Source: Caldilineaceae bacterium (lineage in GTDB: Bacteria; Chloroflexota; Anaerolineae; Caldilineales; Caldilineaceae). From it: a DNA stretch of 64,000 nucleotides. The stretch covers positions 1 through 64,000 of the forward strand of contig JAHDWH010000002.1 in the NCBI GenBank assembly GCA_023384455.1, given 5' to 3'. A program made the translations under genes and the position numbers. Under the pieces are notes generated by a model. It was not told where the DNA came from, did not search any database, and was given only the letters and a program-made list of their open reading frames with translations. Below, in pieces: positions 2,484 through 63,200 of this stretch. Within the stretch, counting starts at the first letter, position 1; the number at the start of each line of letters is the position of its first letter.

Positions 2484-2586
2484 GTAACTGTTCAGCCACC
2501 CCACCCTACCCCTCCCCATTCCAGGGCGGAAACTGGATCGACTCCTCCCCCACAGTGGGGGAGGTAGGGTGGGGGCGAGCAGTTAC
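2484..2586. repeat. 103-bp MITE-like element, copy 1
   Basis: A 103-bp unit with imperfect terminal inverted repeats (GTAACTGTTCAGCC at one end, complement of GCGAGCAGTTAC at the other) and an inner TCCCCCACAGTGGGGGA palindrome. Copies of exactly the same length lie at 59055-59157 (opposite orientation) and 62556-62658. There is no coding capacity and no clear target-site duplication. Confidence 0.75.
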
Positions 2587-8145: not shown

Positions 8146-8306
8146 AGACAGACCTCATTGGCGTGCGTTACGACAATTGATATTTCAAATGAGTCAAAAA
8201 GAGGACGCAGATTTTAATGATTTGAATTGATAAACGCTGATTGAGTCCGATAAAATCTGCGAAAATCAGTTGTTTCTGCGTAATCTGCGTTCTAACTCTT
8301 CTACTT

Positions 8307-9688: not shown

Positions 9689-9760
9689 CGAAAAACCTGC
9701 GCTTCCTGCGTGAAATGAGTCAAAAAAATTCTGTACAGATACTGTCTGTCCGTCTGTCAG

Positions 9761-9808
9761 AAACGTGAAACGTGAGATCGTCCGAGTGCTCTCACGTTTC
9801 ACGTATCA
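9761..9808. repeat. ACGTTTCACG hairpin element, nuoJ-nuoH gap
   Basis: Inverted repeat built of GAAACGTGAAACGTGAGATC and a complementary TCTCACGTTTCACG arm. This is the first of six similar hairpins in the window (others at 13167, 32265, 35465, 40325 and 48832), all in gaps between genes. Confidence 0.65.
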
Positions 9809-9818
9809 CTCGCCATCT

Positions 9819-13133: not shown

Positions 13134-13166
13134 ACCAGAAATGGCGACTGTCCGAATTTAGCCGTC

Positions 13167-13228
13167 GAAGCGTGAAACGTGAAACGTGAGAGCATTCGAT
13201 GAAATTCACGTTTCACGCGTCACGCTTC
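13167..13228. repeat. ACGTTTCACG hairpin element, nuoB-nuoCD gap
   Basis: GAAGCGTGAAACGTGAAACG faces TTCACGTTTCACGCGTCACGC across a short loop. It fills most of the gap between nuoB and nuoCD and lies just upstream of the nuoCD start. Confidence 0.65.
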
Positions 13229-15147: not shown

Positions 15148-15267
15148 AACAGTTCCCCATGCGACGGGTTGCGCCACGGGGGATGAAAATGTAGGTCGGA
15201 CTGTTAGTCCGACGGGCCTGCAACGTCGCTGGTCGGTCCGACGTACGAATGGCTATTTTCAGGGCAG
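15148..15267. repeat. 120-bp GTCGGACTGTTAGTCCGAC repeat, copy A
   Basis: Starts AACAGTTC and ends TATTTTCAGGGCAG. It matches 63073-63200 almost base for base, except that 8 bases (ACTAACAG) are missing here, removing part of one hairpin arm. It is flanked on both sides by ATCCGTG-type tracts. The 292-base gap between nuoCD and the next gene holds nothing else. Confidence 0.75.
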
Positions 15268-35430: not shown

Positions 35431-35464
35431 ACACACCTCCGCCGGATTGCCGATTTGTCGGGCA

Positions 35465-35519
35465 GAAACGTGAAACGTGAGATCATTCGGATCCTCTCAC
35501 GTTTCACGCCTCACATTTC
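35465..35519. repeat. ACGTTTCACG hairpin element, HD gene - isomerase gap
   Basis: GAAACGTGAAACGTGAGATC faces TCTCACGTTTCACGCCTCAC. Fourth of six copies. Confidence 0.65.
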
Positions 35520-40296: not shown

Positions 40297-40324
40297 CGGT
40301 AGCCGATTCTATTTCTTCCGGGCG

Positions 40325-40383
40325 GAAACGGGAGGCGTGATTCGTGAGATCGCCCGGCCTTTTTCACGTTTCACGTTTCACGT
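40325..40383. repeat. ACGTTTCACG hairpin element, GIY-YIG - MFS gap
   Basis: GGCGTGATTCGTGAGATCGCC then TTTTCACGTTTCACGTTTCACG. Fifth of six copies; it lies just past the MFS stop codon. Confidence 0.6.
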
Positions 40384-59054: not shown

Positions 59055-59157
59055 GTAACTGCTCACCCCCTCCCAACCTCCCCCACTGTGGGGGAGAAGT
59101 CGAGCCACTTCCCTCCCTGGGATGGGGAGGGCTAGGGCGGGGTGGCTGAACAGTTAC
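59055..59157. repeat. 103-bp MITE-like element, copy 2 (reverse orientation)
   Basis: Reverse complement of the 2484-2586 element, exactly 103 bp, GTAACTGCTCACCCC to GGCTGAACAGTTAC. It lies upstream of a broken flavodoxin gene. The 265-base gap from 59018 holds nothing else except low-complexity C-rich sequence. Confidence 0.75.
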
Positions 59158-62520: not shown

Positions 62521-62555
62521 CCCTGTTAACCGCGAGTTTTCAATCTGCCTGAAAC

Positions 62556-62658
62556 GTAACTACTCAGCCACCCCACCCTAGCCCTCCCCAGATTAGGGAG
62601 GGAACTGGATCGACTCCTCCCCCAGTCTGGGGGAGGTTGGGTGGGGGTGAGCAGTTAC
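62556..62658. repeat. 103-bp MITE-like element, copy 3
   Basis: Direct orientation relative to copy 1 and exactly 103 bp: GTAACTACTCAGCCACCCCA to GTGAGCAGTTAC, with an inner TCCCCCAGTCTGGGGGA palindrome. It ends 33 bases before the cupin 2 start. Confidence 0.75.
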
Positions 62659-62690
62659 CCTGAAACTACCCAATAAAAAGAGAGTATTGC

Positions 62691-63072: not shown

Positions 63073-63200
63073 AACAGTTCTTCATGCGACGGGTTGCGCC
63101 ACGGGGGATGAAAATGTAGGTCGGACTGTTAGTCCGACGGGCCTGCACCGTCGCTGGTCGGACTAACAGTCCGACGTACGAAGGGCTATTTTCAGGGCAG
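63073..63200. repeat. 128-bp GTCGGACTGTTAGTCCGAC repeat, copy B
   Basis: Same repeat as 15148-15267 with 8 more bases. In this copy GTCGGACTGTTAGTCCGAC and GTCGGACTAACAGTCCGAC are exact complements, so it folds as a long hairpin. It ends in ATTTTCAGGGCAG, 22 bases before the DUF488 gene. Confidence 0.75.

Follow-up and report, generated by a model that had tools for sequence, protein, structure and literature searches.

A high-copy 103-bp repeat with IS66-type ends, very probably a non-autonomous element (MITE), in a Caldilineaceae genome

In this study, we analysed three 103-bp repeats in the window (the whole 64,000-nt stretch of DNA, contig C441 of the host genome G000, a 6.77-Mb MAG of 448 contigs). 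They are very probably copies of a non-autonomous element (MITE) with IS66-type ends that would be moved by an IS66 transposase encoded elsewhere. The MITE was one of the alternatives offered by the earlier note on this DNA, and it is supported by 8-bp target-site duplications (TSDs), conserved ends, a high copy number, the near-absence of one copy in the relative G005 and the presence of IS66 elements with matching ends in relatives. The element is short (too short for a transposase gene), has no coding capacity, carries the terminal inverted repeats GTAACTGTTCAGCC / GTAACTGCTCACCC and constant 8-bp TSDs, and occurs as dispersed copies.

Each of the three window copies was exactly 103 bp in length at the coordinates first given for it, and the three aligned without gaps once copy 2 was reverse-complemented (Table 1). 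Identity to the consensus was 96%, 93% and 90%. All three shared the ends GTAACT...AGTTAC, with the consensus GTAACT[GA][CT]TCAG on the left and GTAACTGCTC[AG]C on the right. The central TCCCCCAC-type palindrome that had been described is present as one of a pair of hairpins inside the element, CTCCCCATTCCAGGGAGGG and CCTCCCCCACAGTGGGGGAGG.

Table 1. Positions of the three repeat copies and of the parts of copy 3 in the window
Feature	Position	Strand	Remarks
Putative MITE copy 1, 103 bp	2484..2586	+	GTAACTGTTCAGCC...GCGAGCAGTTAC; no TSD
Putative MITE copy 2, 103 bp	59055..59157	-	no recognisable TSD
Putative MITE copy 3, 103 bp	62556..62658	+	intact 8-bp TSD
Left target-site duplication of copy 3, CCTGAAAC	62548..62555	.	
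Right target-site duplication of copy 3, CCTGAAAC	62659..62666	.	
Left IS66-type terminal repeat of copy 3, GTAACTACTCAGCC	62556..62569	+	cf. IS66 ends GTAACTACTCAG / GTAACTACTAAGCC / GTGACTATTCAGGC
Right IS66-type terminal repeat of copy 3, inward GTAACTGCTCACCC	62645..62658	-	cf. remnant end GTAACTGCTTACCCC (L209)
C/G-rich double-hairpin core of copy 3	62570..62644	+	repeat found elsewhere without IS66 ends

The earlier note had proposed a search for target-site duplications; these were found and were exactly 8 bp in length. Among the 43 full-length copies in a 1.14-Mb sample, the 8-bp TSD was perfect in 19 and had at most one mismatch in 27, while none of the 43 swapped-flank controls matched with three mismatches or fewer. 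Exact flanking repeats of 6, 7, 9 and 10 bp numbered 0, 1, 0 and 0, respectively, and a partly overlapping set of copies gave a perfect 8-bp TSD in 28 of 56. At the locus of copy 3 in G005, a genome of the same genus, the flanks are 95–98% identical and the element itself is almost entirely absent, an insertion polymorphism that leaves a scar, GTAACTACTCA, identical to the left end of the element. We infer from this scar that the G005 site arose by deletion after insertion, via the short repeat AACTACTCA / AACTACCCA, and is not a virgin site. Taken together, the 8-bp TSDs and the near-absence in G005 demonstrate insertion.

The lack of a TSD at copies 1 and 2 weighs against an IS66-type MITE. 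The flanks of copy 1 (ATTTTGAC / AAAAGAGT) do not match each other, and in four genomes of the same genus the sequence on its left and that on its right fall on different contigs; this junction arose either because copies recombined or because the assembly was wrongly joined at the repeat. Copy 2 is common to the host and G005. Copy 1 lies between an epimerase-like gene and a Proton_antipo_M gene, copy 2 follows a SLAC1-type gene, and copy 3 is flanked by two small cupin genes. An ORF-length test for intergenic bias showed that long ORFs span most sites anyway in this GC-rich genome.

Two further inverted repeats adjoin copy 1. Just upstream is AAAGGGATGATGTGATGGT...ACCATCACATCATCCCTTT (2404–2460), and directly 3′ is a 41-bp near-perfect palindrome (2587–2627, AAAAGAGTAGAGACACGGC/GCCGTGTCTCTACTCTTTT), which relatives have conserved next to their copy of the Proton_antipo_M gene and which is probably a terminator-like hairpin with a GTAG-type motif. 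The idea that this palindrome splits a TSD of copy 1 was rejected because the matching sequence of the relatives begins only past the MITE and the palindrome is conserved there.

A strict left-end pattern had 220 matches in the host genome (reversed-pattern control, 0), whereas the 297 other genomes of the class together gave just one, in a member of the host's genus. These counts show that the IS66-type MITE has multiplied in a burst at the level of the species. Elements of this kind are already known, but the burst is notable. A profile search of the 1.14-Mb sample gave 79 non-overlapping matches, including the 43 of full length, which extrapolate to about 250 copies of full length in the genome and to a total of about 470, the latter figure being partly inflated because partial copies at contig ends were counted. 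The covariance-model search that had been suggested detected the family in every one of the seven genomes of the genus (10–65 matches per genome; no more than 65 candidates were scored in each, so that the figure for the host's own genome is a lower bound), and in a few other genera it found C-rich relatives that were more diverged. Scanning named genome contigs for the exact pattern gave no match, and the element had none in plasmid and phage records. Many copies lie at contig ends; the repeats break MAG assemblies, and the copies may mark points of rearrangement or mis-joining.

The constant length of 103 bp that had been claimed proved to be strongly modal (31 of the 43 full-length copies) rather than fixed, the full range being 79–104 bp. 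A single master element that transposed as one unit accounts for this near-constancy. One C-rich copy measures 270 bp and contains other repeats inserted internally.

IS66 elements in Ktedonobacteria and in several genera of Caldilineaceae also bear ends of the form GTAACT[AG][CT]T[CA]AG, with 8-bp TSDs. These elements have a single ORF, are 1.5–1.7 kb in length and mostly carry exact 8-bp TSDs; Pfam searches of those in relatives confirmed IS66 transposases with the domains DUF6444, zf-IS66 and DDE_Tnp_IS66. Those of Caldilineaceae end in GTAACTACTAAGCC, GTAACTGTTCAGG, GTAACCGTTCAGATGG and GTGACTATTCAGGC, the last two being from the host's genus, and those of Dictyobacter in GTAACTACTCAG/GTAACTGCTCAG. 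The same-genus IS66 elements are different elements whose ends are closely similar to those of the MITE, and the IS66 protein of G033, from the host's family, has a 100% identical counterpart in OY282376.1 (Caldilineaceae bacterium), which places the host in Caldilineaceae, Chloroflexota. The MITE ends (GTAACT[GA][CT]TCAGCC on the left, GTAACTGCTCACCC on the right) match the IS66 ends of the relatives and of a remnant in the host over 11–16 bp; that the similarity is limited to about this length weighs against an IS66 origin.

The search for a transposase with matching ends, also proposed earlier, succeeded in relatives, but no intact one was present in the host assembly. The host genome gave no PF03050 match and so has no Pfam-detectable IS66 catalytic domain. 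The remnant (L209), found only with a profile built from the aligned transposases of relatives, is a degenerate N-terminal fragment followed by an internal deletion and then ...GGGGTAAGCAGTTAC, that is, the end GTAACTGCTTACCCC, nearly identical to an end of the MITE; we take it as the trace of a former transposase source or its sibling. The absence of an intact IS66 is weak evidence because the host is a MAG of 448 contigs, and MAG assemblies often drop multi-copy transposons. As to derivation from IS66, the 8-bp TSDs and matching ends were found and an intact parent transposase in the genome was not; such a parent is expected for an active MITE but is not strictly defining.

The absence of an intact IS66 from the assembly is what favours descent of the MITE from a different DDE family that likewise duplicates 8 bp, the IS66-like ends then being a coincidence. 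We consider this very unlikely, given that IS66 elements with matching ends and 8-bp TSDs occur in several genera of Caldilineaceae and in Ktedonobacteria, and that an interior-blind search of the 1.14 Mb found no other long element with such ends. In the IS66 reading, an IS66-family DDE transposase (single-ORF, DUF6444 + zf-IS66 + DDE_Tnp_IS66) encoded elsewhere would recognise terminal repeats of about 11–14 bp, GTAACT[AG][CT]TCAG, and move the 103-bp unit with duplication of 8 bp of target; its source has presumably since disappeared from the genome, or else is missing from the assembly.

The earlier note had also raised a small structured element under selection, and a fold-selected sRNA, terminator or protein-binding site held at 103 bp would account for the strongly modal length and for the very stable hairpins, since each window copy folds far better than its dinucleotide shuffles (z about -5.5). 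Nevertheless, among 53 copies the covariation term was 0.01 kcal/mol, and double-sided change of any sort was seen at only 2 of 29 pairs; this near-lack of compensatory changes gives no support for a structured RNA or for selection on an RNA fold, and the strong palindrome is due to the core. No Rfam family reached its gathering score over the elements, and matches obtained at relaxed thresholds (eukaryotic microRNAs and the like) were rejected, all being below the gathering score. With the 8-bp TSDs and the near-absence in a relative marking insertion as well, we regard this alternative as highly improbable.

The interior-blind search (GTA...TAC, an exact 8-bp TSD and terminal repeats) recovered the C-rich 103-bp family and three more MITE families with the same ends and unrelated interiors: a second of 92–93 bp (core GTGCGACGCAC / GTGCGACGCACTCGCC), a third of 114–133 bp (core ACCACGGAA) and a fourth of 109–141 bp (core GACGCAGATTTTC). 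In same-genus genomes, the C-rich core is also found free of IS66 ends. At L263 (G002:C641), three tandem 90-bp C-rich core units lie in frame in a predicted membrane protein gene, which is matched in the host genome (L161, L179), and in all three loci the in-frame core reads EPHPNPPHSGEGTEST...WGRLGGG. Some core copies of the other three families likewise lack the ends. These end-less cores give the MITEs a chimeric look, and we infer that IS66 termini came to flank pre-existing palindromic repeats, the core having come first and the ends later; decayed ends could be a partial explanation for the core copies without them. We suggest, tentatively, that palindromic repeats already present in this lineage, and unrelated to one another, have been captured time and again by IS66-type termini, with at least four cores. 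If capture is recurrent, it would offer REP-like palindromes a route to mobility through a DDE transposase, and the ends, TSDs and several cores make a clean system for asking how MITEs are assembled.

A GC-rich double-hairpin core resembling REP arrangements, and found also without IS66 ends, might suggest that a single-strand transposase of the RAYT/IS200 type moved a REP/BIME-like palindrome, but this is hardly credible for the amplified units, which carry 8-bp TSDs (Y1/RAYT elements are not known to make these) and ends that match IS66. For the core copies without ends, a REP/RAYT origin is possible.

Other repeats were seen in passing. A fourth-family core without IS66 ends (GGACGCAGATTTTAATGATTTGAATTGAT) lies at 8203–8242 of the window. 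An 89-bp direct repeat, 97% identical between its copies and with a GTCGGACTGTTAGTCCGAC palindrome (15148–15236 and 63073–63161), is another dispersed element, and a palindrome family of about 58 bp is made up of AACGTGAAACGTGAGA...TCACGTTTCACG (9752–9809, 13166–13223, 35457–35514 and 40324–40381). A CCACGGAA-type core with another palindromic pair, CAGGCTCTTGATCTG...AGAGCCTG, occurs at L155 13124–13200, L182 10350–10422 and L129 2944–2977 and is perhaps a further MITE family.

The single-ORF IS66 elements of the relatives, which from this layout we take to be ISBst12-like, share with the MITE the GTAA start, the 8-bp TSDs and similar terminal 11–14 bp, whereas the 103-bp element has no gene and its interior has no IS66 homology. 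Repeats of 8 bp are also published for IS66 elements (PMC3281130, PMC11946415), whose classical ends start GTAAGCG (PMC11946415), unlike the GTAACTR found here, so that only the GTAA start is common; this difference, too, weighs against an IS66 origin. Searches of the open-access literature found no IS66 MITE in Chloroflexota. The phyla with reported REP or GTAG-tagged palindromes include Chloroflexi (PMC3733652). Both they and the present element are high-copy GC-rich palindromes; however, a REP is a 20–40-bp palindrome with a GTAG/CGTC tag and no TSD, and the 103-bp element, with its 8-bp TSD, does not fit that description. REPs are not known to carry 8-bp TSDs or IS66 ends. Another parallel is MITEPsy1, which is 100 bp in length and probably derived from ISPsy2 (PMC3189936): like the 103-bp element it is of about 100 bp, with terminal inverted repeats, no coding capacity, TSDs and ends that match an insertion sequence, but its parent belongs to another family, its TSD is 4 bp rather than 8 bp, and it is present in a handful of copies, whereas the 103-bp family numbers hundreds and shares its ends with several unrelated cores.
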